DNA of 64,000 bases from Liolophura sinensis (Eukaryota; Mollusca; Polyplacophora; Chitonida; Chitonidae): NCBI RefSeq assembly GCF_032854445.1, contig NC_088298.1, forward strand, positions 15,299,504 through 15,363,503, written 5' to 3'. Position numbers and translations under genes: made by a program. Shown here piece by piece: positions 5,717 through 61,575 of this stretch (position 1 is its first letter; each line of letters starts with the position of its first letter). The notes under the pieces were generated by a model, which was not told the DNA's origin, ran no database searches, and was given only the letters and a program-made list of their open reading frames with translations.

Positions 5717-8639
5717 CCATCCTATATCTCATTTTGTAACTGTCAAAAATTGAGTTAGGTGTGAGATCAGATTTTCACACATGATCCTAGAGATGAGTTT
5801 TAATGAATTAACATACATTGCAAATATAAAACAATGTGCTCTGTTTAGCAGAGAAAAAGTCAATAGTATACTTTACAGCAGTAATTAAACTTTAATACCA
5901 GAGAACGAGATTTATCCATAAAAAAACAAAACTTACTACAGCGACTCAAACATACTCCCCCTCTATGAAAAAGACAAAACCAATCCGAAGACCTTATCAG
6001 TTTACGTTGATTTGTAAATGAACACAACTAGGGCTCACGCAGATTTGAATACATGTATGAAACTGAAAGTAAGTGTACAGCTGCAAACAGGAACAATTTA
6101 GTACTTCCCTTTCTAGGCCAGATCGGTATCAGACAGTGCAATTACACAGTTTATGAACAAAAATAACCACATGTTTCAAAGGTTACTCAGATCCGCTTTT
6201 ATCAGATGAACATTGCGTCAGTCAGTATTCAAGACAAGTTTCTTAAACCCCAAGCTATGATGTACGGACACATGTGAACACGACCACGACAACTGTAAAT
6301 TGTTTACATTTACACACGTATTCTGATGACATATACGATGCGGCGCCACTTTTAATCCTACTTTCTCTTTTTTTTTTTTTGCTTATTTGTGAATTACATG
6401 TATGAACTCAATTTCACTGTCCAAAACAAAAGCAACAGATTCAGAATAGTATCCTTACAATTCATAGCCAAAATAGGTAAAACTGTTTACCTGTTTAATA
6501 TTTTTATCTGTACTGATGTGTATGACAGCTAAGGTATGTGGCAATCATGCAAATGGCCTGTGTGTCACACACTGAATTGGTACCCAAATTCTTCAACCAT
6601 TTTCCACATCAAAGAGCAACTTTCAGTGCAGTTTAAACATTTATTTCAAAGTTGACTCTTGGAGACAAAACTACACTGGTTGGATTGGCCAATTTCAGGG
6701 CTTCAGAAAAAGTGTAATTTTATCAGTGTTCACAGAATAATGCCTTCAAAATATGCTTCAATAAAGATCTTTCAAACATGTGAAAAGGTTTTTAGAATTG
6801 CAGTGGCTGTATGCATACACCTGACATTGCAAAACCTCACTAATATCACTATCTGCAGCTTGAACAGGTACATGAAGGAAGCCTGCACAGCTGACGTGTC
6901 AAATGTCTCTCCCATGTCCTGTTTTCTTAACAATCTGGCCTATATTTTTCACCCCTGATTATTTATATCTTTCTTTTTCCAAGTAAACATCCTTATTAGC
7001 ATACACACAAACATGTTACATTTCTAACAATTTGGGCAACCCACAACATTAACATAATCTCCGATACAAAACAGTCTTGCCTGCCAATGATATGGGGAAG
7101 TAAGCCTTCCTTCACCCACCCAAAGTTCAAAACTATGCCCCGGGGTAGCCACCTGTACATTTATTATCAACAATAATCCTGGAAAACATTTAAAAGTTGT
7201 ACCTGTACTTGTTGACCTAATTTGTTACCAATAAAATAACGTATGTTGATGACAAGTAATTCAAAGGATTTGATCAGAATATTTTTTTTTCCCTGTGTAC
7301 ACACCCACAGATATAGCTAAGGTAATAAATCTTATAAGAAAAAAACCTTATCTGAACGTGTGTGCGTATCTGTTTAAACCCCATGGAAAAAATGAAAGTT
7401 TTGTCAAAATCCACTGTATTATTACACCTAATTCCTTCCTCAATAGCAATAACATAATCAGTGCTATCAGGGTTTGAACCCCTAACACTGCTTACCTTTT
7501 TCACAGGAACCCTTGTTTAGGTGTTGTAGGGTGGGGCTCTCACGTGTAGCCATGACATTGTCGTTACAGAAAATATCCGATTTCGGAGGGGAGCCTGGAA
7601 AACACAAACCATGACAAAAAAATTAAAATAACTTCTAAATGCCACTGAACGACTGTACTTTATCTCATAAAATATACATCTGTCACTTACACACAACTTC
7701 TTTTTTTAACTTCTTAAACTTAGAGAAATGAACATAAAATTATTTCAAAATGCTTATTACACATACATGTAATACAATGAAGAGCTACATGTCTGAATAT
7801 ATTATATCACCTTGGGATTTGTGAACATTAAAATATCCCCCTGGCAATATATCATTAAATACCAGAAAGGAAAATGTACATGTATGATTTTGTCTACTAT
7901 AATTTGCAAAATAAGACTTTCAATTAGCTAAGTATTTCATGTGGGGTGCATTATATGGAACCTTTCCTCGCCCTCTTGACTAAAGCATTGTTACCCTAGA
8001 CAATGAGGTCGCAGTGTCAAATTCACTGATCAGACGTTTGTGAGGGGCTTTAACAACGTTATGGGGTTTGACAAAAACATAAAACTTCCACTTTCAACAA
8101 CCATCTTTGTCAACTGCATCATACATCTCAAAATAGGAAAAATTAAGTGGTGCTTATTGTATCAGTGCTTTATTTACTCAGAATACACAATGATGTACTT
8201 CAGAAATCTCACTGCACATTTATAAATTTAACACAAGGTTAACCTTCAAGAAAGGTTTCCCTCTAACTGTGGGTTAAATCTCAACCGCTTTAATTAGCCT
8301 AGTGAAAAATGATTCCAGGAATTTTCTAAAGTTTAGAACACTTCCACTTCCAGGAAGACTTCAATTACATTTCTGTTATTTACATGTTTACATTTCTGTA
8401 CAAAGCAAAGCGAAGACAAAAATCCTTTCATTAAAACATGCACACCTACATTTGATTTTGAAAACAGTTTTAATTAATGTCATACTACATGAAACTGTAT
8501 TACGATATTGATTCCTTATGGTAAACCTTTGAAATGCTAAAATTTTCACCTCTCGTGACCTAACGGCAGTTATGCCGTGAACAGTAAATAATGACAAGCT
8601 CCCGACTGTGTGAAAACTGAAAGAGAAAGCAGTACCTAG
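5717..8639. other. No gene recognised (5717-8639)
   Basis: AT-rich intergenic or intronic DNA. The small ORFs of 60-99 codons lack domain signatures and splice context. No well-formed repeat was recognised. Confidence 0.5.
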
Positions 8640-9240
8640 TTACAAAAATTCAACAGATCGGGCTTCACCTCGGCGTCTGTTTGCGCACTGAGGATAAAAA
8701 CAAACGTCTTATTCGTGTACATAACGGTGGAAAAACAGGGAAAGATAGAACAGTGACTTATTCATCTTTAACAAACTTATATAGGATCCGGTCTAAAGCG
8801 CAGTAAAATCGCTCCACGCCACGCAGGCCTATCCCTAATTTCTGCGTCGGCCATCTTGTGAGTCCGCTTCGAACTGTCGAAGATCCTTCTCTAAATTTGT
8901 ACGAAAATCTGCCAAAGAACGTGACATCCACACATAAATTCATCTTAGTTACACATGGAAGTAAACAACAATTCGTCTTACATCAAAGGAAAATGGATTT
9001 AACTGACAACATTTCAGCTTTCACTTTCAGTATTACCTGCAAAACTGCAAGTGAAAATCAGTCGCCGTGGCTGCGCTGTGTCAATGACCTTGTGACCAAC
9101 TGTAGACTTATTTACTTTAGGATACCCCGAGGAATTTTACCCCGGGTGAATATGACCTATAGTCATGGTCAAATCTTTCCATGTTACTTTCGATTTGGAC
9201 GTACATGTACATGTGTTTCGACTTAAGGAGCTTGATCTAA
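8640..9240 (-). promoter_or_regulatory. Candidate promoter / 5' region of a minus-strand transcript
   Basis: This stretch is richer in GC and CpG than its flanks. On the minus strand it contains CACAAGATGGCCGACG near 8857-8842, which looks like the YY1-type AAGATGGC element common at promoters and starts, followed by a short ORF of about 25 codons. It lies upstream of the minus-strand IRF exons, so it could be the IRF promoter or first leader exon. The region is also open on the plus strand (8858-9226), without a recognisable domain. Confidence 0.3.
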
Positions 9241-11850
9241 GATAACTATACATTACACTTGAACTTATTTCAGTCAGTTTAGTATATTAAATTGTATATT
9301 ATGGTATAGTATATTATATATTGTTTCAAACATCCATTATTTACTATATATTTTTTTGTAAAAATCTTGTTTCTCTTCGCCTGATCTGTAATATTATTTA
9401 TCAGGTTGCATAAAAAAATTCAAGAATCCAGTATCAATATCACGTGAAAGGTTTACGTCACGCGTGAGAGTGTTCGCACGTGTCTCGCCAAAGATCATGC
9501 TGTGGCTTACTCCGGGCATTCCAGCTTCCAACTCCTACAAAACTGTAGAAGTCAAAATGCTGATGCACAGCACAAAACAACAGTCAAATAAACAAATCAA
9601 AACGCGACATGGCATCCCGCTACTATACGACATGACAACCTGCCAAAAAAAATGCGTCGACAGTGCACGGTGTGGCTGTATGTTTGTATCTACATCGATT
9701 ATCCTCCATTTTATACTTTCTGAAAAATTCATCTGAGAAGTTCAAAAGCCGTTAGATGTAATCTTAATAACGCATATCCAATTAAACGATTAATTATACC
9801 ACTAATTGGCATGCTAGTAGTTAAAACACTTTCAGAACAAACATCAACAGAACTATAAGGTCTATTTAAATGCATGCCATATACACCAACTTTATACACC
9901 AACCCTAATAGCGACGAGTGTATTTAGGCTATACTGTGGTTTACACATACGTACGTTTATATCACAAGAAATAAAATTCGCGTCTATGAATGTACTTTAC
10001 ACAAGGCATATAAACATACCGGCTTTGTATGCGTAGCTGTAACACCTGAGCTACAGATGAAGCCTAAAATCCGCTCCCCTTGTAATTCTGCTACAGAGAG
10101 GTCACTAACAAAGACCAGGCTAGAGGATATAGCTAGTGCACATCATAAATATCTTCATATGCCTACCAACATAGGACTATCCATATTACAGGTTTGATAA
10201 TACACGAGTATGCAAAGCAGCGTTTGTCCCGTTTACGCGGCAAGTAGCAGCTTTGCTCCATTTCGTGATAATCGCAGGGTCGAGTTCCCGGAATCTCATT
10301 GATAAGCTGCTTATGATCTGCACATACACTTTCGTTTTCCGCTGCAGATGGAGTGGTAAAAAATGATTCAAATTACCCCCCCCCCCCCGCCCAAATGCAT
10401 CTCCCCCCCCCACCCCACTCCGACATAGAAAAAAGAAACACCAGTGGTACATAAACAATTTACCATTATTCTTGCTAATATTAAACATTTTTAACTTTAT
10501 AAGTTTATGTGTCTGCAGATCTGTCGGTTGGTCAGTCGGTTAAATTTTTGACACACATCCTTACTTTTAATGATCGAATGGCCTAAATGCCAGGCATGCA
10601 CTATTTGCGTAAATGGTTCATTTCAAAGGTTTCGCCGCATCGTTATGTGCCTTTTTTTCACACATTAGTCCACTTATTCTCTCAAGTATGCAGGGTCCAC
10701 TTTCACAAACCTTTGCAAATCATATTTATCGCAACTTGCCACACGTAATAGGTGTTTTGTTGAACTTATATTCGGATCATGGGATATTTACATCTTGGTG
10801 TGCCCCTTTTAGCCAATTAAATTAAAATTTAAAATTTAATTTAAATATGAATGTTTCTCTTTTCACCCATGCATATTTTGTCGATCTATTGAACAAGAAA
10901 TACATATCCCAATTTTTCCGAAAAAGAACTGAGAGAAATTTTTCTATAATTATTTATTTACTTGATTGATGTTCAACCATTTTTCACTTCTCTCTTTTCG
11001 ATGGCGGAATGCGTTATGAGGGGAGACATCCGTTGTTCGCTGTAAACCAACGATCCTTTTACATTTTCCCGCACCTGACAGTCCGAACTTGCACACCATG
11101 TATATTGATAGAAGACAAATCGTCTTTAACAAATTCAACACGGCGCGAACTCACCCGACAAGCCCCGTGGACTGTTCAGTGCCAAAATATCTACATTCCA
11201 GAAAAAAGTGCGATTAATCAATCAATCAATCAATCAACCAAATTATCAAATCAAACAATCATTGAATGGTTGCTGTGGGGGATATTGGACTAGACGGTAT
11301 ATATAGGCTGATAGAAAATACTGCTGTAAATATCACTATTTTAACTTCCATTTTATGTTCTGCTTGCTGTTATAATAAGGATGACGTCATATCCCAGGGC
11401 GGAAAAATTATGTTTTCCTCTACCACGAAACCGAACACTTCACGCGTGGAAGTCCGACTTTGAGGTATATCGGGTATAATTACAAACAGGGATATTTTCC
11501 TCAGATTATCAGTCTACATGCAAGACGATTTTATGTGCCTCCAAACAACAAAGAGCTCCAAACAAGCCTGATTTACATAAAGCATTTATTCTGTTCAGTC
11601 AGTATTATAACAAATGTTGGAAGAATATTTAAGAGTCAGTATTGTATTTGAGTCGGCAAAGGCTGTAATCGAAAGGAAGCAGAGGGCTGCAAACAACCGA
11701 AATGCTTGTCTCTTGCGAAATTCCTGTGCTTTCTGTTTCAGCAAAGAGCTAATGAAATGGCCAGTTTCAAAATTACGAACGGGTCTCGTACATTTCTTTT
11801 ATGATGCTATCCTGTCATATTGCTTGGGCAATGGACTCGTTTACTTTCAA
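9241..11850. other. No gene recognised (9241-11850)
   Basis: AT-rich DNA, including a TATA/TATT-rich patch (9270-9370), a C-rich patch with runs of 9-12 C (10377-10425), and an (AATC)n stretch at 11216-11235. None of the short ORFs has a domain signature. Confidence 0.5.
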
Positions 11851-13158: not shown

Positions 13159-13317
13159 ATGTTTGCAATCCTTCTCAATTCCCGATGTCTACACACCAGT
13201 GTGCGGAGACTGGCTGGAGTGGACAAGGCAACGCTGAGCAAACTGCGGAAAAAAACAGGATTCAGCATAATGCATTGTAAAAATGCCCTTGAGCAGTTCA
13301 ACAATGACCTTGAAAAG
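13159..13317 (+). CDS. TSFM: TSFM coding exon 1
   Basis: Acceptor TTATCTTTCAG precedes 13144, so 15 leader bases come before the ATG. Donor is GAAAAG/GTAACC, phase 0. It encodes residues 1-53: the targeting peptide and the UBA-like EF-Tu-binding start. Confidence 0.92.
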
Positions 13318-16300
13318 GTAACCCTTCCCGTTCATGTTTTTCATTTTGAGTTTCTGAGCGCAGTTCAGATGTTGTTCCAAAAAACCTCAGGCGTGAGGTC
13401 TATTCCAGGTCATACAGAGCTGATAGTTTTCGTTTTTGTTGTCTGATGTTCAGTGTCTTTGTAGTGTAACAATGGGGTATCATTTAAACTAGTCGAGGTG
13501 GTTGGCATGCCAGCATGGCCCAATGACCAAGAACCCTCTCACCAGTACGCTCACAGTGATTTTAACTCCAGCTCATACTGGCCTGTGTGGAAAGGTCTAA
13601 CAGCAACCTGCGAATGGTCACGGGTTTCCCCCTAGTTCAGGCCGGTACAGGGTTTTCATTTGGAATTGGAGACAGAGGTCAGAGTTCAGAAGTAGGTGGC
13701 TGAATTGAAAGTAATTATGTCACAATCACTGTTGATTTAAACAGTAAGAATATTCAAACTAGGCGGCTACAGGGACGGCAGTAGACAGCTGTCTGCAGCC
13801 TGTTACTTGCCCTTTTGTGAACACCTTGCCGGTATTTTCACACCATAATGCACCAACAAAATAATAAATAAATTTAGGGCAAAACCACTGATGTCTTATT
13901 CCAGTTCAGCCGTCATTGGTTCAGCTGCACTCTGTCCAAGGGAGCAAACCATTACCCAAAGCTAAATATGCAAATCCTGATGGACAGTACTCTGCAGTTG
14001 TGTCATATCTCAGAAAAATGAAGAATGCTATAAAAATTCTTAGGCCATGATCATCATTACTGTAATGGTTGTGTATTTGACCCAAGCCCATGATGTGCAT
14101 TTCATTAAAACCTGTCCATGACTTTTGTCGTAACATCACTTAGGTGACACCAGTATTATTTTGTGTTCTACAGGCGAAAAAAAAAAAAAAAAAAATCCAA
14201 AAACTGAAAAAATGTAAACTTGAAATTCACCTTTTTATTCTGTTCGATCTTGATGGGATTTTTTGAGTTTTTTTTTTTTTTGATGTTTTTATGATTTTTC
14301 TGTTTTCAAGGGTTTCCAGTCGTGGCAATATGTCTTCATCAAGAAACATGGCTGTTTCAGTCATTCCACATTTTCCACAAATTTGATAATTTTAAGGCTT
14401 TATTGTTATGCCTTTCTTCAATACTTGAAAAAACTTCTACCCATAAAAGAGGGGCCTCCGTGGCTCAGTTGGTTAGCGCGCTAGCGCAGCGTAGTGACCC
14501 AGGAGTCTCTCACCAATGCGGTCGCTGTGAGTTCAGGTCCATCTCATGCTGGCTTCCTCTCCGGCCGTATGTGAGAAGGTCCGACAGCAACCTGCGGATG
14601 GTCGTGGGTTTCCCCCCGGGCTCTGCAAGGTTTCCACCCAACATAATGCTGGCCGCCGTCGTATAAGTGAAATATTCTTGAGTACGGCGTAAAACACCAA
14701 TCAAAAAAAAAAAAAACAAAACCCATAAAAGAAGATCTTAAATTGCTGTGGCCTTAGAGATGAACAGATGTTTTTTCTGATTTTCAGTCGGTTAACATCA
14801 TTTGACATAGTGCCATATAACATGTGAACTAACATTTAAGAAGCTGTCATGAGTTGAGAAGCTTTTTTCCAGTTACACTTTTGTCAGTGTGAGCAATATT
14901 TTTTGTATAGATTTTTCTTGTTTTTTTCAGGCAGAACACTGGTTGCGAGAGCAGGCCCAGAAAGAGGGATGGGTGCGAGCAACAAAGCTTCAAGGTCGAC
15001 CAATGTCACAAGGACTTGTGGGTATTCTGAAGGACACACACATCGCTACCATGATAGAGGTACAGGAAAGATAACTGATCAATTTGAAAAGAAGAACAGG
15101 AAAAAGATATGAAGCTCAATTTTTGTCAGGAATTATTGCCTAAAAGTAAACCTGTAAAATAAAGTTATCAAATCCTTGCTATGAAGGATTCCAAGGAGCC
15201 AGCTGTTTTGGGTGATGATATACAAAAGTTTTAATGGTCAAGCCGCCTACATGTTCATCTCTACCATGTATTAAACATGTTTGATATGCAATTTAGCTTC
15301 TTTTCTTAGGGTTTTTGACATGCTGTAATAAACACCTATTAGACAATACACCATCGCTGTGAGTTCCAGTCCAGCTCATGCTGGCTTCCTATCCATCTGT
15401 AAGTGGGAAGGTCTGTCAGCAACCTGCGCATGGTGGTGGGTTTCCCCCGGGCTCTGCCCGGTTTCCTCCCACCATTATGCTGGCCGCCGTCGTATAAGCG
15501 AAATACTCTTGAGTATGGCATAGAACATCAATCAAATAAACAAACAATATACCATTACACAACATGTGACATACCATTAGACAACTGGGGCCTCCGTGGC
15601 TCAGTCGGTTAAAGCGCTAGCGCAGCGTAATGACCCAGGAGTCTCTCACCAATGCGGTCGCTGTGAGTTCAAGTCCAGCTCATGCTGGCGGCCGTACGTG
15701 AGAAGGTCTGCCAGCAAACTGCGGATGGTCGTTGGTTTCCCCTGGGCTCTGCCCAGTTTCCACCCACCATAATGCTGGCCACCATCATATAAGTGAAATA
15801 TTCTTGAGTACGGCGTAAAACACCAATCAAGAAAAAAAAAATTAGACAACTCGATATGCTTTGTGTATCAAAAATAAGGCATCACTAGCACTAGGTATAT
15901 GGTATCAAAATTGTGTAAAATATGTTAAGGCCTAGCACATTAAAAGGTATGAAAAACTACCGATGTGATTTAGCATACAGCTGCGATGCAAACAAATGGT
16001 CAGTTCGGGATCCATTGGTAAAGTTCTGTTGACCACACAGCCCTTGAGTTAGCTCCCCTTGTCTATTTGTACCTTGTTTCACTCTCTTTGTTTCAAGGAA
16101 TTACTGATATACCTCTTTCTTGGAATTGAGCCACAGGGATAAATAATTACTCAAATGACCCTTAGCGCAAGGTTCTCAGAAATCTGTAAATAATTTATCC
16201 AAGTATTGTGGAAGAAGAACTTGCAAACAAAGAGAGCTCTGAAGCACTAAGGCTGAACTGTATTTAAATTATCTCCCTTGTTTTATTCTGTTTAGATGTA

Positions 16301-19300
16301 TTCTGTGAAAACAAAATACATAAAATGTATACATGTCCCATTGAATCCAAATAATTATCAAAATATTTCAGTAGTTCAGTTTTTCTGGTCAAAGAAAGGT
16401 TTTTTTTCCTTCTACCAAGCCGGTCTCAATTCTTAAAATTTTTTCTTGTGGTAACCAACAACAACAGTGGTGACCTGATGAACCAGGATTTGTATTACTT
16501 GATGACTAATACACCAGACTCAAAGCGAAGACATGGGGCGTCCATTGTCTAGTAGTTAGCATGCTAGTGCAGCACAGTAACTCGGAAACCTCTCACCAGC
16601 TCATGCTGGCTTCTTCTCAGGCTATACCTGTGAAAAGTTTTGCAGCATCATCGGTCCTCCCATGTTCTACCTGATTTTCTCCCCTATAATACCGGCTACT
16701 GTCGTATAAAATATTTTTAAATATGGCATAAAACACCAATCATATAAATAATATAAAATATAAAAAATATAAATAAAGCAAAATAAAAATTTGAATTCTC
16801 TGTTAGATTTCTCATAGATTTCTAGATCATGTCATCAATCATTACTTTCATTGTTGTAAATTGTTTGACACCAGTAATTTGTGAAAACTTAATAAACTTT
16901 CTGTTTATTTTAACAAACAGGTGAACTGCGAGACTGATTTTGTTGCTAAAAATTCCAAGTTCCATGATCTTGTAGCCAGGTTAACGACAGCGTGCCATGA
17001 AAACTTTGTGAAGTTAAATCAGCCACGAGTGAGTAGTCCATACGGGAAACCATTGTGCTTGTGTAAAGGTGCAGTCTTGCGTGTTTCTGAAAACCACCAC
17101 TTCCATTAAATACGGTGTGTGAATCTGTGCGACAGAGAGATTCTGGAAAAATTTAAATGCTGATGGTGATAAAATACTACAATTGATAATCTCCCACACA
17201 ACATATATGAATTTTGTACGGGTTTGCAGAATCGATCAGAAGTTCATTAACCGTGACTATTTTCTAAATCTTCCCCACACTCATATCTGACAAAATCTAG
17301 CACATCTACACAATTATTCTCCATAAATTCTCCTATAGTTATAGAAGTGTCAAGTAAATACTCTTGATAAATAAGTCTGTTTTCATCCACTTTCACTTTC
17401 TCTTTTGGCACCTCTTCTTCATCACTACCATCAGGGTTGCTTTTACTTTCACTTTCATTATCAGCTTCAGTCTGCCTAGATGCTGTTTCATAATTTGCAT
17501 AATTTAAACAGTCAGCTGTTTATTCTGGGCAATGTAATGTCTTTAGACAGTAAGTTTTAGGCAGCATCGATACCCCCTACTGGTTATGTAACATGAGCTA
17601 GTCCGCCTCCATGGTAACTAGCAGGGAGTCCGCCATCATGTAAAGAAACCTGAATACAGCCGTAATGTGTGCCACCAAACAAACGGTTTTTATTTGTCTA
17701 TGTACAAATAATTAAGACATTATAGCACCCTGGTTTCCTCTTTCAATGAAACTGATTGCAGATGTAGAAGTGAAATATTCTTGAATAGGACACTAAACAC
17801 ACATCAGTACATCTGAAAATAGATCATCATGATATCATAGTTTCTCATATTGTAAGTTATATTTTGCCATTGTGTATAGTTCGTGGTTGTGTCACTTTTT
17901 ATAAGTCCTTGAGTTAGACCTTTGACACGCTGCACCAATCAGACAATCACATAAAAGTCTTGTTGAGATGTTGATTAGAAGTTTTGTAACATGTAAAATG
18001 TTTTAAAAGTGTATGAAGAACATAGGTCAGTTATTAAGGCTATATTTCCTTGTAGTGTGACCTGAACACAGATGCCTTGGCTACAGTTCCTGCGGGCAAT
18101 GGGAAAACTTTGGCAGACATTGTTGCCATGGAAGTGGGGAATATTGGAGAAAATATTGCTACGCGGCGAGCTGTCTGCCTGACCACGGGGAATGACATTC
18201 AGCTGGGGTGTTATGTGCACCTGGCAGGTAAGGAATCTTAATAACCATGGTTACAACAGATGACAAGGACTTTTCTAGTCCTGAAGTTGCCTTGTAGAAC
18301 TGATGTGAATAAACAAGGATGATCATTTTCATCTTATGTTAAGGAAAACCAGGCTTGTCAAAGTACTGCTGGTATCAAATCGTCGATCAAAATCAGTCAT
18401 TTTTCTTGATTTCAGTGGAAGAGATCTTCCCTGAATAAAACCAAATAACATCTTGTTGTTATTGTTAGTGATGAAGTTAGTTGGGGGTGATCTGCAGTTG
18501 CAGGATTGTTAGTTCAGTTGGTGATAACATAACTTAATGAGGATGTCTTTTAAAAACACTGTTTCTTGATAAAATCAGACAGTTTCTGACAGACGGATAT
18601 TTTCATCACATACTGATCTTTTGTAAAGGTACAGTTTTATCTTAAAATCAGGTTATCTCTCCTTAAGCAACAGTTTCACCATAAAATCCTGCAAAGAGGT
18701 GTTTTTATCATAAATTCATGATCTCTCTCCCCCGACCCTGGGGATAATTTTGTGAAAAAAGATGGCGACGCCCCGCCAACGCCAAGATCTGTTGCAAACA
18801 CACAGTCCTTTCCTAAAAGCATATGATGTCTGACAAAGCGACATTTTAGTAAGAGAAATCATGCGGTCTCTTTCACTTGAGGGACAATTAACTGGTAGAA
18901 TGAGATAATCTCTTGCTAAAGTATTGTTTCATCCTAAAATCAGATATCTGCCGAATGGAAGGTTCTTTCGTAAAGCCAGATGACCTCTCAAAATCAGACA
19001 CCTTCTTCATACTATGGTTTTGTGCTACATTTGTTAAATCGAAGGAGAAAAGGTGATCATGTTCTTTTATTTATTTTTAGGGCCACAGATTCAGACAAAC
19101 AGTGATTGCATTATGGGTAAATATGGCGCCATGTTAACCTTGAAACAGGTCAGCAGTGAAGTTAATCCAGAGCTCTCATTGGATGAAACTACTCATTTGA
19201 TCTGCCAACACATTGTTGGCATGAACCCTAAGGTGATTGGGGAGCGAGGGGAGGAACCAACCAGTGAGAAAGTATCTAGGCCGACTGAAGCTGATAATGA

Positions 19301-19508
19301 AAGTGAAAGTAAAAGCAACCCTGATGGTAGTGATGAAGAAGAGGTGCCAAAAGAGAAAGTGAAAGTGGAAGAAAACAGACTTATTTATCAAGAGTATTTA
19401 CTTGACACTTCTATAACTATGGGAGAATTTATGGAGAATAATTGTGTAGATGTGCTAGATTTTGTCAGATATGAGTGTGGTGAAGATTTAGAAAACAGTC
19501 ACAGTTAA
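13159..19508 (+). CDS. TSFM: Elongation factor Ts, mitochondrial (complete, five coding exons)
   Basis: Guanine-nucleotide exchange factor for mitochondrial EF-Tu, acting in the matrix. The coding segments are 13159-13317, 14931-15059, 16921-17028, 18056-18227 and 19081-19508. All have GT-AG junctions and together make 996 nt, or 331 aa plus stop, close to the human protein (about 325 aa). The N-terminus is Arg-rich without acidic residues (MFAILLNSRCLHTSVRRLAG), as in a matrix-targeting peptide. EF-Ts signature 1 is LRKKTGFSIMHCKNAL (residues 29-44). Signature 2, EVNCETDFVAK, spans the exon 2/3 junction (from residue 96). Core domains follow, and then a C-terminal YLLDxSITMGEF...VLDFVRYECGE block as in animal TSFM. 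A Ser/Glu/Lys-rich insert (about residues 244-287) is longer than in human. An in-frame TGA nine bases upstream fixes the start. Intron 3 carries an inverted copy of the gene's own 3' end. Confidence 0.93.
13496..13875 (+). repeat. Diverged SINE-A copy in TSFM intron 1
   Basis: Recognisable pieces are CAATGACCAAGAACCCTCTC, CTCATACTGGC, CAGCAACCTGCGAATGGTCA and GGGTTTCC. About 180 bp of unrelated sequence separates them from a degenerate CACCATAATGC...AATAAATAAAT end. Confidence 0.55.
14451..14720 (+). repeat. Full-length SINE-A with target-site duplication (TSFM intron 1)
   Basis: The tRNA-like head GGGGCCTCCGTGGCTCAGTT carries an A-box (TGGCTCAGTTGG) and a B-box-like GTGAGTTCAGGTCC. The body follows, then the GTACGGCGTAAAACACCAAT tail and poly-A. 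CCCATAAAAGA occurs directly before (14440-14450) and after (14722-14732), a perfect 11-bp duplication that marks retroposition. Confidence 0.92.
14931..15059 (+). CDS. TSFM: TSFM coding exon 2
   Basis: Acceptor TTTTTTTCAG and donor ATAGAG/GTACAG, phase 0 at both ends. 43 codons, AEHWLREQAQKEGW to HIATMIE. Two same-orientation SINE-A copies flank it. Confidence 0.92.
15352..15545 (+). repeat. SINE-A copy, 5' truncated (TSFM intron 2)
   Basis: Starts at the B-box region (CATCGCTGTGAGTTCCAGTC) and runs through body and tail to ATCAATCAAATAAACAAACA. The A-box is missing. Confidence 0.85.
15587..15840 (+). repeat. Full-length SINE-A with target-site duplication (TSFM intron 2)
   Basis: Complete head, body and tail. 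A short segment that follows CTCATGCTGG in other copies is missing. ATTAGACAACT is duplicated at 15576-15586 and 15841-15851, showing a retroposed insertion. Confidence 0.92.
16535..16770 (+). repeat. Diverged SINE-A (TSFM intron 2)
   Basis: GGGGCGTCCATTGTCTAGTA, GTTAGCATGCTAGTGCAGCA, CTCATGCTGGCTTCTTCTC and GGCATAAAACACCAATCATA align along the SINE-A consensus with many changes. The tail decays into AT repeats. Confidence 0.75.
16921..17028 (+). CDS. TSFM: TSFM coding exon 3
   Basis: Acceptor TTTTAACAAACAG and donor CCACGA/GTGAGT, phase 0. 36 codons beginning VNCETDFVAKNSKF, the EF-Ts signature 2 block. Confidence 0.92.
17143..17481 (-). pseudogene. Inverted 339-bp copy of the TSFM last exon and 3' UTR start
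   Basis: The reverse complement of this intron-3 block aligns without net indels to 19274-19612, with about 15 differences by eye (about 96% identity). It holds the last 77 codons of TSFM in an intact frame with the stop, plus about 107 bp of 3' UTR. Six differences fall in the coding part (P/Q, E/D, M/I and S/G replacements and two silent) and nine in the UTR part. Homology stops abruptly at both ends. There is no poly-A or tRNA feature, so this is not a normal retrocopy. It lies antisense to TSFM transcription and has no start or splice signal of its own that I can see. Confidence 0.93.
17755..17810 (+). repeat. Short SINE-A tail remnant
   Basis: GAAGTGAAATATTCTTGAAT and a degenerate ACACTAAACACACATCA match the end of SINE-A. 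Confidence 0.5.
18056..18227 (+). CDS. TSFM: TSFM coding exon 4
   Basis: Acceptor TTTCCTTGTAG and donor CTGGCAG/GTAAGG. Phase 0 in, phase 1 out. 57 codons including LADIVAMEVGNIGENIATRR. It lies in the loop between the two inverted arms. Confidence 0.92.
18560..19010 (+). repeat. Old, degenerate tandem repeat in TSFM intron 4
   Basis: Variants of TCATAAAATCAGATGATCTCT separated by AAGGACAGTTTC-like spacers recur six or more times at about 50-65 bp. The copies are strongly diverged, and two unrelated inserts break the series. Confidence 0.5.
19081..19508 (+). CDS. TSFM: TSFM coding exon 5 (last)
   Basis: Acceptor TTATTTATTTTTAG; the first two bases complete a split Gly codon. 142 residues to TAA at 19506-19508. 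Its 3' part (from 19274) is the parent of the inverted copy in intron 3. Confidence 0.93.
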
Positions 19509-19670
19509 TGAACTTCTGATCGATTTTGCTAACCCATACAAAATTCATGTATGTTGTGCGGGAGATTATCGATTTTAGCATTTTATCACCATCAGCATTT
19601 AAATTTTTCTAGTACTTCATCGCTTGTGACATAACAATGGTGCGAACAGTCTATTTGACCACCCTTACAA

Positions 19671-19676
19671 AATAAA
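19671..19676 (+). terminator. TSFM polyadenylation signal
   Basis: A canonical AATAAA 163 bases after the stop codon. Another AATAAA (about 19915) is a weaker candidate. Confidence 0.65.
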
Positions 19677-20689
19677 CACAGAATATTTCATTCTTCCCAA
19701 GAGGAATTTGGAATCTGTCTGTCAACCATTGCTGTAGTCCTTTAAACCAGCATTTTTAATCTTAGTTGCAGCTTGCACTTTTCTCTACAAGATATCTAAA
19801 ACATCAGCCTAGCATGACGTCCATTTTTTTTTACCTGTGGTTGCTGAAAGTGAAGTCATAGCATTTTGTTGCCTTGGTAACCTACAGGGGTGGGTCAAAT
19901 TTCTTTTCTGTGAAAATAAATTCAGCAGAAATGGAAACTTACCCTGTTTTATTCTTGAGATGCAACAATGGTTGTCATTAGAAACTAAAATTGACCACCT
20001 CTCCTCACCTGCACGAAAGTTATGTAAGAATTGCTAACCCTACCCCCATTTGTACCTGTAGACATGTTCAGTAAAGTGACATTTCTGTATTAACGTTGCA
20101 CACACAAAGCGCATTTATCCCAATTTCATCAAACATAAGAAGCAGATCAACTTTCATACCTATTTTAAAACACACACCAATTTATTGGTTTTTAAAGTCA
20201 CTTTGCATGCAACAAAATGTCAATACACAATTGCGCAGTGCTATGGTAAATCTCGTATGTGGAGGCTTTGCGAATAATGGGGTAAAATAATTTTCTGAGT
20301 TATGCGCCCTAAAACAGTTTTGGTCAAATAATTGCAGTCTTACAAGTTGAAAATTCAAGCCTGACAAGGAGAATGTTGGAATTTTCCTTGAAAAAAAAAA
20401 GCAAGGGGGTGAGGTGGGGTGGGGGTGGGGTCAGCCATGGTAAATACAAAGTAGTCGATGATCATTTTAAAGCAATTACAACTTGAGCTTTTTGGTCATC
20501 CCGCTTATGTATGGAGTTGGGTTTTTTTTTGTTTGTTTGTTTGTTTTGTTTTTGTTTCTTTGTCTGGATTAGTTTGTCGTTAGATTGTCTGGGTTTGACG
20601 TGAAGTTTGAAGCACTATATATAAGAGTATGTGATTGTCGACGATGATGTATATCTATAGCATCAGATGTTCCACGACGAGCTGTACCG

Positions 20690-20879: not shown

Positions 20880-21085
20880 AGCATTAGCACTATGATTTGA
20901 GAGTTCAAGTCCAGTTTTTGCTGCCGTCCTCTGGTGGCGGGTGGGAATGTCTGCCAGTAACCTGCGGATGGTCATCGGTTTCCCCTGGGCTCTGCCAGGG
21001 TTCCTCCCACCGTAATACTGGCCCCCGTCGTATATTGTGAAATATTCTTGAGCGTCGTGTAAAACACCAATCAAATAAACATGTG
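20880..21085 (+). repeat. SINE-A copy, 5' truncated
   Basis: Begins in the B-box region (GAGAGTTCAAGTCC) and runs through the body to GTAAAACACCAATCAAATAA. Confidence 0.85.
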
Positions 21086-21235
21086 AATACATGTTCGGCT
21101 GAAACCGTGTGTCAGGAAGTTTGTCTGGAAACTAAGCTCAAGGAGCGGTTGCGTTACATTACCCATAATCCTGCACACCGCCATCATAACTATGGTGAAT
21201 TATTCTCGGTGACAATAAGCAATCAACGACGCTCA

Positions 21236-21748: not shown

Positions 21749-22171
21749 ATGGGTTCATCGAGCTACTTAAAACCACGCAAGTCTTGGGATTGTCGATCAA
21801 GAAAGAAGAAATTAACAAATCTGTCCAATATAGTCAAGGCTTCATGCCGAAAGATAGAATCTGTCTTGAAAAACGCAAGTCAAATTAAGTGTGACACTTC
21901 TATCGATTTGTCGAGACANNNNNNNNNNNNNNNNNNNNNNNNNNNNNNNNNNNNNNNNNNNNNNNNNNNNNNNNNNNNNNNNNNNNNNNNNNNNNNNNNN
22001 NNNNNNNNNNNNNNNNNNNNNNNNNNNNNNNNNNNNNNNNNNNNNNNNNNNNNNNNNNNNNNNNNNNNNNNNNNNNNNNNNNNNNNNNNNNNNNNNNNNN
22101 NNNNNNNNNNNNNNNNNNCGAGACAGTTAGCAGAACTAACTAGCGCTCAAATTCTTGATTTATATCTTGGA
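21749..22171 (+). CDS. Small ORF interrupted by an N gap, unknown product
   Basis: An ATG in strong context (GTGGCCATGG) opens a basic segment, MGSSSYLKPRKSWDCRSRKK, followed by NIVKASCRKIESVLKNAS. It enters a run of 200 N, and beyond it the frame resumes as RQLAELTSAQILDLYLG and a stop. The seven bases CGAGACA occur on both sides of the gap. If they are the same bases, the ORF closes in frame to about 77 codons. No family is recognised. It sits at the edge of a CpG-richer stretch (21450-22780), so it may be a first exon or a leader ORF. Confidence 0.35.
21919..22118. other. Assembly gap (200 N)
   Basis: Exactly 200 ambiguous bases. The round number suggests a fixed-size placeholder, and the 7-bp identical flanks suggest the contigs may really overlap. 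Confidence 0.95.
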
Positions 22172-28305: not shown

Positions 28306-28806
28306 CATGAAAATAAATAGTTACGATTAACATTTAGTTTCATCATTCTGCAGGTAAAGGATAATACAACGGCCCTTCACCGCATACAATGGTACCTCAC
28401 TTATATCCCTTATCTTGAACTCTAAGGGATGCAGTAGTAAAATTGCCAATTTTCTAAAGCCTGTCTAGACAAAGAATTGAACCCGAGTCCCCTCGCTTAC
28501 GAGAAGAGCCATATTATAGACCGGAAGCTCATTTTCTCTGTGGACAATTTTTGTCGGCGTTATACATACATGTATCTGTATAACTTTACAATATTTCTGA
28601 GAATCGGATAGAATAATATAATCGATTTTTTAAAAAAAGCAGATCGTGACGAAATCCAGGAACATACTAAACAGGTAACAGTCTACAGCTGGTGATTTTG
28701 TGCAAACGGTACGCCATTTCGTTTGGTATAAGGAAGAATTTAGTGGTAAAGTTTTATGCTTATATATTTACATTGTTATTTCTTTGCCCATCTCCTTATT
28801 ATGTAT

Positions 28807-29065
28807 GGGGCCTCCGTGGCTCAGCTGGTTAGCGCGCCAGCGCAGCGTAATGACCCACGAGTCTCTCACCTATGCGGTCGCTGTGAGTTCAAATCCAGCT
28901 CATGCTGGCTTCCTCTCCGGTCGTACGTAGGAAGGTCTGCCAGCAACCTGCGGATGGTCGTGAGTTTCCCCAGGGCTCTGCCCGGTTTCCACCCACCATA
29001 ATGTTGGCCGCCGTCGTATAAGTGAAAAATTGTTGAGTACGGCGTAAAACAATAATAACAATAAA
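28807..29065 (+). repeat. Full-length SINE-A
   Basis: Complete head with A-box TGGCTCAGCTGG and B-box GTGAGTTCAAATCC. Body and tail run to GTACGGCGTAAAACAATAAT. No clear target-site duplication was found. Confidence 0.9.
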
Positions 29066-29401
29066 GTAATTAAGTTTTCCAGAGCATTAGATAACAGTAA
29101 CGGTACCATAAGATCACCCGAAACCGACAGAACCAGGAATAAACCTATCAGAAGTATTTGGTGAACACAATACTGGTGTTTTTTCCAACAGAAGTCATAT
29201 CTGAACAACTGTATTTTGTGTTCAATTCATACAAGGCCTTGTTTATGTTTGATTGTTTTGTAAAACAAAACTTGTGCACTTCACATTTGTTTAAGACGTA
29301 TTTGTTTTGGGCTAACAAATTCTTTTGTTGAACGAAGCAACTCAAGTTGATGAGCTAGATTTCAACATAAGTGTTTTTGTGTGTATTTACTGGCTATTGT
29401 A

Positions 29402-29703
29402 GTGACCACTATCCCACTCACCACTATCCCACTCACCACTGTCCCACTCACCACTATCCAACAGACAACTGTCACACACTGACCACTGTCCACTCACCAC
29501 TGTCCCACTCACCACTATCCGACAGACCACTGTCCCACTCACCACTGTCCCACTCACCACTATCCCAGTGACCACTATCCAACTTACCACTGTCCCACTG
29601 ACCACTATCCAGCTTACCACTGTCCCACTGACCACTATCCAGCTTACCACTATCCCACTGACCACTATCCCACTGACCACTGTCCCAATGACCACTATCC
29701 AAT
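29402..29703 (+). repeat. 15-bp minisatellite
   Basis: About 20 units of ACCACTGTCCCACTC and variants (TATCCAACT, TATCCAGCTT). Being five codons long, it gives spurious open frames on both strands. An ACAAT-rich degenerate tract (29705-29805) follows. Confidence 0.9.
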
Positions 29704-37700: not shown

Positions 37701-39156
37701 GATACTCGAAACGGAGCCATTTAACCTATATCGTGTGTGCAAAATGCATTATACATACGGGTACTTATAGATCACAGCGCGTGGTAGGCCCTATATATGC
37801 TCAACCCGCTCTTTACTGTAACTCTTTCCCTTTAAATCGCTACAGTATATATATTCAGACCCCAATCTTCGTCTGTTGATTGACTTTGCTCGTGGGTATT
37901 TCACGTAAAGCTTTATTTTTCTTTGCATATTTACACAAACATCGAGGTATTGCTTGGGATGCTTCAATGGAAGAAAATTTAAACCAGCACGTGAACAAAC
38001 AAGCGCGACGGAAGTAACTAATTGCGTGAACACTTTCGAAGTGCATGGCCCTTACATTTGCATGGCCGTAAAATGCATGGTGAAACAAACCGAAATTGTA
38101 ACTGAATTTCTGAATTTATACGGCGCATGAGCATGCACACTTTAATATCCCACATAAGTTATCGGACAAATCTTGCAGAAACAGGCATAAAAAACATTTT
38201 GTTATTGTTGATGGTGTTGTTGTTGTATGTATACGTGTTCATTGTATAGTCGTTGCATCGAATTCAGAAGCTAGAAAAATGTCTTGTGTAGTAGGCATAT
38301 TTACACCAAGACGGCTTGTTGTTATTTTAGGGAATTTAAATTTAAATTTTAATACAATTTATATTTAATATGGGCTTTAATATTTTCTGCACCATTCAAG
38401 CGAGGCGATTTGTAGTAGGCCAGATATTGTCGAAGTCGAGAGACCTGGGATTAAACACGGGTCGGTTCATACCAAACACTAAAAATGGTACTAGCTGTCT
38501 CGCTTGGCGCTCAACATTTAGGGGTTAGAGCAATGAAACAGGACTGGTTGGCCCGGTGTAAGTATAATGTGACTGGCTGTGGAGTCATGTCTGGTGTCTC
38601 CGGCATGATATTTCAATGGCGGCAGCACTTTGTTGGCATGGACTCGCCCTGCCACAAGAAGACACGGTACATGTACACACACCTAATGACACTTTCATAC
38701 ATACATACATACCTATTGAACACAAACGTATATGTCAACATTTTATGTGGTCGAATGCTGACGAATCTTGTGGAATATAAACTGTTTTCAAGAGCTAAGT
38801 ACACGTATAATGTCCAACATAGTATATGAAAAAAATAAAAAAGCACAAAAGATAGGCTTTTATAAATGAACGTTAATCTACTTGAGTATGCACATATATT
38901 ATGCAACTATTGTTTTCCTTAAAATAATTAGGAAAATGTTTAATATAGAGTGTTTTATGTTAGTTAATTAATCAGAGATTGTCATGTTTTGTTTATATAT
39001 GTAAAAGATATATGACCTATGCATGCACATTTGTGTTTACCTTACCGTAAATGACATCAGATATGAAATCATGTGAAAATGGCATTCAATGAGTTTAATC
39101 GTGCATGTCTGGCGTACATTTGAAATAAAAATAGGAAACCATTAATGTATAGTATA
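37701..39156. other. No gene recognised (37701-39156)
   Basis: Mixed AT-rich DNA. A block at about 38400-38650 (GAGAGACCTGGGATTAAACA, GGACTGGTTGGCCCGGTGTA, AATGTGACTGGCTGTGG) looks like a diverged dispersed repeat of another family. A CATA microsatellite lies at 38695-38712. Confidence 0.4.
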
Positions 39157-39402
39157 GGGGCCTCCGTGGCTCAGTTGGTTAGCGTGCTAGCGCAGCGTAA
39201 TGACACAGGAGTTTCTCCCCAATGCGGTCGCTGTGAGTTCAAGTCCAGCTTATGCTGGCTTCCTCTCCGGCCGTATGTGGGAAGGTGTGTCAGCAACCTG
39301 CGGATGGTCGTTCCACCAACCATAATGCTGGCCGCCGTCGTATAAGTGAAATAATCTTGAGTACGGCGTAAAACACCAATCAAATAAATAAATAAATAAA
39401 TA
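39157..39402 (+). repeat. Full-length SINE-A with target-site duplication
   Basis: Complete head, body and (AAAT)n tail, with part of the middle missing after GGATGGTCGT. AATGTATAGTATA is repeated immediately before and after, which marks recent retroposition. Confidence 0.92.
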
Positions 39403-48291: not shown

Positions 48292-48465
48292 CACTGGCTT
48301 CCTCTCCGGTCGTACGTGGGAAGGTCTTCGAGCAACCTGCGGATGGTCGTGGGTTTTCCCCGGGCACTGCCCGGTTCCCTCTCACCATAATGCTGGCGGC
48401 CGTCGTATAAGTGAAATATTCTTGAGTACGGCGTAAAACGCCAATCAAAATAAATAAATAAACAA
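48292..48465 (+). repeat. SINE-A, 5' truncated, with target-site duplication
   Basis: Begins at CACTGGCTTCCTCTCCGG and lacks the tRNA-like head. ATAACATGATG occurs at 48281-48291 and 48466-48476. Clean duplication with a truncated 5' end indicates incomplete reverse transcription at insertion. Confidence 0.9.
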
Positions 48466-48774
48466 ATAACATGATGGACGTGCATGTATTTGTGCTTTGT
48501 TTATATGTTATCACTAAACAAAGACTATTCTATTTTCTATTCGTGGTAACTAGCAGAACCTTTTTGAGTTCAAGGTTCAATCCGACTCTGGTCACGACAA
48601 ACACATTTTGTTTGTTTGTTTTTTTTTTTACCTGTTTGTGCACATGCGGTCTACATACTTCTTCTACAGCGTGTAATCAGCGTTGGGTCGTATCCAGTTA
48701 TAAGCTATAAAATGCCTGAACTTATCTGGTACTTTCTTGTTGAACCATCAGCATATCTACTGTGACTAATTTTA

Positions 48775-58320: not shown

Positions 58321-58609
58321 TTTTGTTGTGATCCATTATGGTCAATGATCATTCTTATTTATACATAGCTAGACGAGCTGTGACCATTGCAGGCTTTGAC
58401 TCATAAAGTTGCAGGTTCAAATGTAAGTCCTACTGGATTGACTGCATTTGTGTTTTTCAGGATCTTGGTGGGTTTCATGTCTTTCCTGTGGATATATGTC
58501 AGTGAAATCTTCTTAATAAAATTTATACGAATAGACTATTAAGCACCGGTCAAGTGAAATTATTAAACACTGTATTTTTTACCCTTCTATTTTGTTGTTA
58601 TTTTCTCAG

Positions 58610-59105
58610 GCGGCAGTTGCGAGTCTGTGTCCAGAAAATGTGCAATATGGTAGTGGAGATTGCTGTTCGAAATGTGGACCAGGGTATGGTGTGGATACCC
58701 TGTGTTCCAAACAGAACGACACAATTTGTGAGGGTTGCGAGGAGGGAGTGACGTTTTCGACCAGCTGGAGTTACGACAAGGAGTGCTTACCTTGTTCCAG
58801 CTGCATCAAAAATGCACATGTTGTGCAGGCGTGTAACTCCACGCATGACGTTGTTTGTGAGTGCAATCCTAATTTTTTTTACGACCCAGAGAGCGACACG
58901 TGCAAACTGTGCGAACCATGTGCCCCAGGCTCTGGAGCCTCACGGCACTGTAACAGCATGGAGAACACCATTTGTGAAGAGTGCCCTAATGCTACGTTTT
59001 CAGATGTTCTCAGTCCCACGGCAGATTGTCTCCCTTGCTCTATGTGCGAGGAGGATCAAGTGATGCTACAGGCTTGCTCGGCTAAACAGGATGCCATTTG
59101 TCTAG
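58610..59105 (+). CDS. NGFR: NGFR/p75NTR-like TNF receptor, exon with four cysteine-rich domains
   Basis: Extracellular ligand-binding part of a TNF-receptor-superfamily protein on the cell surface. Acceptor TTGTTATTTTCTCAG (phase 0) and donor TGTCTAG/GTGCGT (phase 1) bound 165 codons plus one base. Four six-Cys repeats (24 Cys) follow AAVAS: about residues 7-39, 40-83, 84-122 and 123-165 of the exon. Compared with vertebrate p75NTR, the order, number and spacing of repeats match. Conserved stretches include GVTFS...CLPCSSC, DTCKLCEPCAPGSG, NTICEECPNATFSD and DCLPCSMCEEDQ. Three N-glycosylation sequons occur (NDT, NST, NAT); the first sits where human p75NTR has NQT. Transmembrane and death-domain exons are not in the window. 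The ORF reads past the donor to a stop at 59198-59200, which would give a short soluble form if the intron were retained. Confidence 0.88.
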
Positions 59106-60540
59106 GTGCGTATACAAAGTTATCTTTTTTTCTTGTAATGTGGTATATTTTCAACGATTTTACAGATGCTTTTCTAGGTAACTTAAATTTCAGCAATTGA
59201 AGGGATATTGCAGGTTCTGCCTTGTATGTGACCTTGAACCTTGATCCCACTATGACCTTTAACTAGTTTAACCTAGACCTGGCCATCAGGCGACTTTGAC
59301 CTTTTATTGCTTGTCCACCATTTTTTGTAGTATACAAAAACTGATAGCATGTTACTGCTCAAAGCAGTTTGCCTTGATGTTTTTTTGAAAGATTAGACAG
59401 AATGTTCAAAGCTAAAATATTTAAAAAATGATGACGAAGTAAAAAGGATCTATGCTGTTGGAAAATCAAAGTGAATGTAACACAGTTAAAAAATATAAGG
59501 ATGAAATTATTATTTTTTGTTACAATTTATGAACAGGCTGTTTTAAAATTGTGCTTACATTGTCCATAAGACTTGTAAAGAGACCATCACGTTGACCCCA
59601 AAAATATCAGACCCAGCTTCAAAGTTCAACCTCAAAAGTGCATTTTTTGAATAAATAAAAATGTAATTAAATACTATATTTGTGCTGAGACTTACATTTT
59701 CCCTTAGAATACCATCCTTTGTAAACAAATTAAAAAACACCTTTTTAGAATCAACAGAACTCTCAGAATCGGCATTCATATTTTAGGCTTGTGTGATGGC
59801 TAGGACTAGTCGGCTAATATGAATAGCTATGATACAATTGATAAAATCTGCAAAAGATTTACAAAATTTGCTCACAGTAGTCTGGAAAGTATGTTTTTTT
59901 GGAGCTATGCATCCAAACAGATTGTGTATATAAGCAAAATGGACGTTCCAGGTCGGTACTGCAACCACAGTCTAAAGATTCAGTCGACATCAGAATGATA
60001 GAGGCTTTGTTTTGAAACTGTATCATATGCTGAGAAATTAATATCATCAGCAAATAATTTACCAGTCTACTAAAGAAAAAAAAAGCAGAATTCATTTTGT
60101 CAAAGTAAAAAAAACCTGAATTAGTGAACAAAGATGACCCTGTTAGTGAGAGAGACATTTAATGCGGCATTACATCCATTTGTCGTGTGACCATGTCACT
60201 TAAAACTGAATCACAATCTGTCACAGCACTGACAAACTTCACTTCTCTGGTGTCAAACTAAACAGTTTGCTGTTTGTTCTTAGCATTTGACAGAAAAAAA
60301 ATTTTAAAAATCACTAAAGGACGAAGCACTTTACTCTAATGGTGGATAAATGTGAAATAAGGCTCTAAATGCATCATCGCTCAAAAGTAACAGACTTGGA
60401 AATGTTTCGTCATCGTGAAAGAAACTTTTAAAGCACAAGGAACTAAGTGGTTCCTAAAAGAACTTTCCACTAATACTAATGAGGTTCCTGATAGAATGTT
60501 CCTGTATTTCAATGAGGGTTCCTGATGGAACCTCCAAATG
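59106..60540. other. Intron 2 of the NGFR-like gene, 5' part
   Basis: AT-rich. TGACCTTGAACCTTGATCCC and further TGACCTTT half-sites at 59228-59303 form a small cluster of nuclear-receptor-like half-sites or a short repeat. No further exon was recognised. Confidence 0.45.
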
Positions 60541-61575
60541 TTAGATAAAAAATCCAAAATGATATGCAAGGTGCAAGTAGGTAATATACAAGGTGTAAAT
60601 GTTTTTCTATAGATGATATACAAAGTGCAAGTAATTTTGTATATATGATATATAAAGTGCAAGTAGTTGTCTTGAGGTGATATGCAAGGTGAAAGTACTT
60701 TTCTCCATGTGATATACAAGGTGCAACTAGTTTTGTCTATAATGATATACAAAAACCAGTAGATCCACTGATAAGTTTCAAGTAATACACAAGTCGTGTA
60801 ACTCCGTTTTTCAGAGTTATACTACTTGTGTATTTCATGATTTACATGTACAAAGTGCAAGTAGTTTTTGTTATGTGATATACAAGGTGCAAGTAGTTTT
60901 TGCTATGTGATATACAAGGTGCAAGTAGTTTTCTCTGTGTGATATACAAGGTGCAAGTAGTTTTTGTTATGTGATATACAAGGTGCAAGTAGTTTTCTCT
61001 GTGATATACTATGTGCAAGTAGTTGTTGCTATGTGATATACAAAGTGCAAGTAATTCTCTATGTGATATACAAGGTGTAAGTGGTTTTCTATATGTGATT
61101 TACAAGGTGCAAGTAGTTTTTGCTGTGTGATATACAAGATGCAAGCAATTTTCTCTGTGTGATATTCAAGGTGCGGGTAGTTTTCTCTATGTGATATACA
61201 AGTTGGAAGTAGTTTTCTCAATGTGATATACAAGGTGCAAGTAGTTGTCTCGAGGTGAGATGCAAGGTGCAGTTAGTTTCTCCATGTGATATACAAGGTG
61301 CAAGTAGTTTTTGCTGTGTGATATACAAGGTGCAAGTAGTTCTCTCTGTGCGATATACAAGGTGCAAGTAGTTCTCTCTGTGTGATATACAAGGTGTAAG
61401 TGGTTTTCTCTGTGATGTACAAAGTACAAGTAGTTTTTGCTGTGTGATATACAAGGTGCAAGTAGTTTTCTCTGTGTGATATACAAGGTGCAAGTAGTTT
61501 TCTCTGTGATATACAAGGTGCAAGTAGTTTTCTCTATGTGATATACAAGGTGCAAGTAATTTTCTGTGTATGAAA
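60541..61575 (+). repeat. 32-bp minisatellite
   Basis: About 30 units of GATATACAAGGTGCAAGTAG plus TTTTCTCTGTGT, with unit lengths 30-33 bp. The minus strand is open in several frames (LYITQRKLLAPC-type repeats), which I take as by-products. A 21-bp inverted repeat interrupts the array at 60784-60834. Confidence 0.93.
60784..60834. repeat. Hairpin inside the minisatellite
   Basis: The arms 60784-60804 and 60814-60834 are inverted repeats matching at 19 of 21 positions, with a 9-base loop. The sequence is not a variant of the 32-bp unit. Confidence 0.85.

Follow-up and report, generated by a model that had tools for sequence, protein, structure and literature searches.

An inverted copy of part of the last TSFM exon in intron 3 of the same gene in the chiton Liolophura sinensis

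The hp58 locus of Drosophila simulans is described as an inverted repeat that derives from part of a single exon, exon 2 of CG17385, and was born near its source, and both its primary transcript and its target are reported to increase in dcr-2 mutants (PMC10317233). Inverted pseudogenes of rice are predicted to form a duplex of 185 nucleotides (nt) closed by a 1,283-nt loop, to which small RNAs map (PMC2708354). Intramolecular double-stranded RNA (dsRNA) is also edited by ADAR, and a survey that profiled editing in 22 species, including sea hare, oyster and octopus, reports dsRNA formed by young repeats as the primary target (PMC9989829). At the DNA level, short-range template switches in great apes are described as placing a reverse-complement copy close to its template (PMC7954356). 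Here, a related arrangement is reported from a 64-kb stretch of the Liolophura sinensis genome (the window; 15299504–15363503 of contig C4, NC_088298.1, in an assembly of 609 Mb and 632 contigs), where the 3′ part of the last exon of TSFM, the gene for mitochondrial EF-Ts, lies close to an inverted copy of itself in intron 3 of the same gene.

With hp58, the TSFM pair shares an origin from a fragment of a single exon and a birthplace near the source. However, hp58 is described as a hairpin locus of its own that lies one gene away from CG17385, whereas the TSFM copy sits inside an intron of its source gene, with the exon itself as second arm (PMC10317233). The rice duplex comes near the TSFM geometry (348-nt arms, 1,774-nt loop), yet both of its arms are pseudogenes in a plant while one TSFM arm is a live coding exon (PMC2708354). 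In neither of these two systems, as far as the available accounts extend, is the live exon itself an arm, and the TSFM locus further differs from both in being known from sequence alone. Like the edited intramolecular dsRNAs, the TSFM arms qualify as potential dsRNA by the measure of the editing survey; the main targets described there are young repeats, whereas the TSFM duplex would join a unique exon to its intronic copy and is a putative substrate (PMC9989829). The proximity of a reverse-complement copy to its template is shared with the great-ape switches, although these were demonstrated by comparing aligned genomes while the TSFM case is read from one genome (PMC7954356). A limited literature search, covering titles and abstract openings, found no inverted copy of an exon in its own intron. 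The TSFM pair is a known kind of inverted duplication in an unusual exon-to-own-intron layout.

The arms occupy positions 17143–17490 and 19265–19612 of the window, with 1,774 nt between them, and align without a gap, 330 of their 348 positions (94.8%) being complementary; self-BLAST of the window recovers the pair with an E value of 6.9e-155 over 345 nt. Between the narrower limits 17143–17481 and 19274–19612, for which the first-pass annotation had proposed a gap-free reverse complement with about 15 differences, exactly 15 were counted, and the true match is slightly longer and holds 18. Since three of these 18 crowd into the last nine right-hand positions of the left arm (17482–17490), its right edge is soft. 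Beyond the arm ends, the similarity of the 300-nt flanks falls to the level of shuffled sequence (their scores were reached by 53 of 200 and 125 of 200 shuffles). An ungapped match that ends in unrelated flanks supports a local duplication. The pair is the longest among the 64 inverted pairs of the window (at least 80% identity over at least 50 nt; at least three of the 64 are palindromes) and also among the nine whose arms lie no more than 4 kb apart.

The gene model contains five coding exons, all on the plus strand, with an unbroken frame of 331 amino acids. The protein scores above the cut-offs of both PF25025 (EF-Ts N-terminal, 81.4 bits) and PF00889 (EF_TS, 99.8 bits), and its best solved relative is the mitochondrial EF-Ts structure 1xb2 (E 2.1e-54), which we take to be the bovine protein. 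The coding part of exon 1 spans 13159–13317 and exon 2 spans 14931–15059, where the start at 14931 was picked from four open-frame options because its fit to 1xb2 needs no insert. Exon 3 lies at 16921–17028, exon 4 at 18056–18227, and the coding part of exon 5 together with the stop codon at 19081–19508, followed by AATAAA at 19671–19676, the first poly(A) signal downstream of the stop.

The right arm (plus strand) lies inside the terminal exon 5, where it covers 244 coding nt, stop codon included, and the first 104 nt of the 3′ untranslated region (UTR), and it ends 59 nt before the poly(A) signal. The left arm holds the same content on the minus strand of intron 3, without the acceptor of exon 5, the first 184 nt of that exon or the poly(A) signal. 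Part of the segment encoded by the right arm (residues 287–325 of the query) aligns with the C-terminus of 1xb2; because the right arm thus encodes the C-terminal segment of EF-Ts, it is the source from which the left arm was copied. Between them, the loop of the predicted hairpin (17491–19264, plus strand) runs from the remainder of intron 3 through exon 4 and intron 4 into exon 5, of which it takes the first 184 nt. The gene model therefore agrees with the first-pass annotation in placing an inverted copy of the last TSFM exon in the gene's own intron and both arms in one transcription unit, about 1.8 kb apart with exon 4 in the loop, and it reproduces the two ends of exon 4. An antisense gene on the left arm was considered and rejected: a minus-strand frame is open for 90 amino acids at 17247–17519, but it consists mostly of copied exon, and the exon acceptor was not copied.

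The pair probably arose by a local inverted duplication. A template switch during local replication or repair, a route by which inverted repeats are reported to be generated (PMC7954356), would most likely have placed an inverted duplicate of some 340–350 bp of the last TSFM exon in the gene's own intron 3, about 1.8 kb from its source. Thereafter the left arm would drift as unconstrained intron sequence, and once exon 5 has been added to a pre-mRNA that retains intron 3, that molecule could fold into a long duplex. Some adenosine-to-inosine (A-to-I) editing of unspliced molecules would be the expected outcome, with little or no adaptive role. Of this account, the arms, where they lie in the gene model, which arm was copied from which, the occurrence at two places in the assembly and the predicted fold are established, whereas the template switch, the editing and the neutrality are inferred. 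An 8-nt repeat, AATTTAAA, found at 17150–17157 just inside the left edge of the left arm and again at 17501–17508 beyond its right edge, is compatible with a switch at microhomology, but it is AT-rich and may be a chance match. A processed retrocopy was rejected, as the copied part ends before the AATAAA signal and the plus strand lacks a T-run ahead of 17143, a truncated form still being conceivable. The copied fragment sits within a single exon, so that an exon-exon junction could not show in the copy.

Searched against the whole assembly, exon 5 with its UTR yielded two candidates, both of which were scored and proved to be the exon itself and the copy in intron 3; with matches at two places only, no dispersed repeat or mobile carrier is seen. 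The same search bears on the concern that the inverted copy is an assembly artefact, produced by a chimeric read or by misplacement of a haplotype segment. A gap of 200 N at 21919–22118, 2.3 kb beyond the right arm and downstream of TSFM, would speak for such an error. Against it, no additional copy of the exon turns up elsewhere in the assembly, the copy lies in a 25-Mb contig, the intron continues beyond it with a long terminal repeat (LTR) and a remnant of a short interspersed nuclear element (SINE), and the order of exons 3, 4 and 5 is intact. Moreover, a divergence of 5%, higher in the UTR (9 of 104 positions) than in the coding part (9 of 244), does not look like read error, and an artefact appears very unlikely.

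For comparison, inverted pairs with arms no more than 4 kb apart (at least 80% identity, at least 50 nt) were collected from 20 stretches of 10 kb elsewhere in the genome (199,910 readable bases, pairs cut by the stretch ends being missed). Among the 19 rows obtained, some overlapping and nine of them palindromes, one reached at least 300 nt and none did so at 90% identity or more. The long one, in stretch L024, measures 987 nt at 88% identity, with arms at 6023–6984 and 8407–9369 of that stretch, and it shows that long inverted pairs occur elsewhere in the genome. The distinctive trait of the TSFM pair is the match of a coding exon to a copy in its own intron.

Intron 3 also contains a solo-LTR-like element on the plus strand, at about 17533–17724, which starts 42 nt beyond the left arm. 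Genome matches to the right flank of the arm numbered 42 (40 of 48 candidates scored; some matches are pieces of one copy), of which one is the window itself, 11 cover a SINE tail only and 30 cluster around 17551–17724. Eight same-strand pairs of such matches lie 3.4–5.5 kb apart, as the LTRs of a short retrotransposon would. Alignment with three copies places the ends of the element at about 17533 (TGTAATGTCT) and 17724 (ATTATA), and shows a 9-nt insertion near the start of the window copy relative to copies L027 and L028. Whereas L028 carries the 5-nt target repeat GAGTA on both sides, the flanks of the window copy do not match (GGCAA and GCACC). This lack of matching flanks would agree with a retrotransposon-assisted duplication, in which the exon fragment came with the LTR or through repair at it. 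Yet the 42 nt between arm and LTR fall outside the matches of the other copies and are unlike the three aligned copies, the exon fragment was not found with the element elsewhere in the assembly, and a carried fragment would hardly be expected to land in its own gene by chance; such a route seems quite unlikely. The element is treated here as a neighbor of the hairpin rather than a component. A mobile carrier of the left arm bounded by the 15-nt inverted pair 17045–17059 and 17724–17738 was likewise rejected, that pair being at chance level (in 50 of 60 intron 3 shuffles such pairs are at least as numerous).

A further neighbor in intron 3 is a SINE-tail remnant at 17754–17823 on the plus strand. 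A SINE-like repeat is present in many copies in the window (14451–15847, 20894–21090, 28800–29073, 39148–39400, 48294–48470 and others), with a tail like GAGTACGGCGTAAAACACCAATCAA and a head that is tRNA-like by eye, for which ARAGORN calls no tRNA. The tail, reminiscent of molluscs, has no exact match among viral contigs, and a literature text search for its letters returned no paper.

The differences between the arms bear on what happened after copying. Their higher share in the UTR than in the coding part (Fisher p = 0.066) leans the way that coding selection acting on one of the arms would predict. The nine coding differences comprise six non-synonymous and three synonymous changes, against a random expectation of 22% synonymous (P for at least three = 0.32), and thus look unconstrained in the copy, compatible with random change. 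By type, the 18 differences divide into 12 transitions, which turn seven pairs into G-U and five into A-C, and six transversions that break pairing. With seven G-U against five A-C, small numbers drawn from two sequences, no clear excess of changes that preserve pairing was found, and hence no clear sign that pairing has been kept.

One feature weighs against a simple history of copying and neutral drift. The differences crowd toward the ends of the arms, and the middle 198 nt (17275–17472) hold two. Within the coding and UTR strata this scarcity reaches p = 0.0021 for a length chosen post hoc, and p = 0.13 and p = 0.43 for lengths of 150 nt and 100 nt. The scarcity of differences in the middle could reflect later homogenization or selection on both arms; possibly, one arm was later overwritten by the other, and template switches are reported to convert near-perfect inverted repeats into perfect ones (PMC7954356). 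In a stronger version, the intronic copy would be a newly born cis-regulator, an exon-long guide for editing or silencing that tunes the TSFM level through the speed of intron 3 splicing and whose middle 198 nt stay near-identical through repeated conversion or selection. We give this version a very slender chance.

In a minimum-energy fold from exon 3 to position 19700, a single prediction that is silent on kinetics, 337 of the 348 arm positions pair as expected, and the energy of −1097.8 kcal/mol compares with −685.4 to −689.9 kcal/mol when the left arm is shuffled (three shuffles). The duplex of the two arms alone is predicted at −563.8 kcal/mol, against a mean of −100.7 kcal/mol for 20 shuffles. 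The pre-mRNA hairpin proposed in the first-pass annotation stands insofar as the gene model places both arms in one transcription unit and their pairing dominates the predicted fold; by contrast, the few differences between the arms give no clear sign of selection on the pairing. By the gene model, one transcript would carry the two long, near-identical arms, which places the pair within the definition of a long-dsRNA inverted repeat. Because the spliced mRNA of the model keeps one arm, formation of the hairpin is limited to molecules in which exon 5 is already transcribed but intron 3 has yet to be removed; the end of the right arm lies 1,557 nt downstream of the acceptor of intron 3.

The editing survey regards a site as potential dsRNA if the 4,001 nt around it contain a reverse-complement match of at least 80% over at least 50 nt, by which 12 of 1,200 window sites qualify, four of them in the arms (17401, 17451, 19301 and 19351; PMC9989829). 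The genome encodes the ADAR-type deaminase domain PF02137 at six places (21 matches). This domain family takes in ADAT1-like enzymes as well. The predicted fold, the deaminase domains and the dsRNA sites make it plausible that some unspliced TSFM RNA is A-to-I edited.

From here it is a further step to a functional hairpin, in which the intronic arm, serving as an editing-complementary sequence or as a silencing arm, would act through exon 5 to edit, retain or lower TSFM mRNA. The highly stable predicted pairing, the encoded deaminase domains and the scarce differences in the middle of the arms would all favor such a role, as would the fact that, of the 94 adenosines that the right arm has in coding sequence, 67 would alter the meaning of their codon if edited. 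On the other hand, changes that preserve pairing are not clearly in excess, recoding at random would presumably harm a conserved C-terminus, and intron 3 would have to remain unspliced until exon 5 is made. A functional hairpin is accordingly rated as unlikely. No evidence for use of the hairpin in cells was found in the sequence, and the pair is most likely a tolerated copying accident that is transcribed.

The location of exon 4 in the loop had led the first-pass annotation to propose that pairing of the arms may promote back-splicing of this exon into a circular RNA. This fits poorly because the right arm lies in the terminal exon 5 and not in intron 4, so that the whole of intron 4 and the acceptor of exon 5 fall within the loop too. 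Among the 14 listed inverted pairs of at least 30 nt, none links intron 3 to intron 4. In the absence of such intron-to-intron bracketing, circularization is less likely than had been proposed, and we regard it as very improbable. Exon 4 is 172 nt long, which is not a multiple of three, and its skipping would therefore shift the frame.

Elsewhere in the window, a minus-strand frame at 1724–2215 contains a partial interferon regulatory factor domain (PF00605, positions 1–58 of 105, E 6.9e-17), and a frame at 58535–59200 contains three cysteine-rich stretches of the TNF-receptor type (PF00020, E 5.4e-30). Tandem arrays of short units occupy 692–1758, 60578–61573 and 29404–29701, with shifted self-matches at about 75–89% identity. 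Searches for RNA families and tRNAs found none in the window at the thresholds used, and a search for relatives of TSFM among viral contigs gave four pattern matches, none of which was confirmed.

What the copy means for the gene depends on the behavior of its RNA. If the RNA does not fold, the copy would be a harmless scar of a copying error. If it does fold in cells, TSFM would provide a natural long duplex of unique sequence in which the speed of splicing is set against the editing of a coding exon within one gene, a clean case apart from the usual repeat-derived substrates and possibly an early step by which a hairpin RNA arises out of the gene it targets. The TSFM locus thus offers a clean natural experiment on the effects of such RNA folds.

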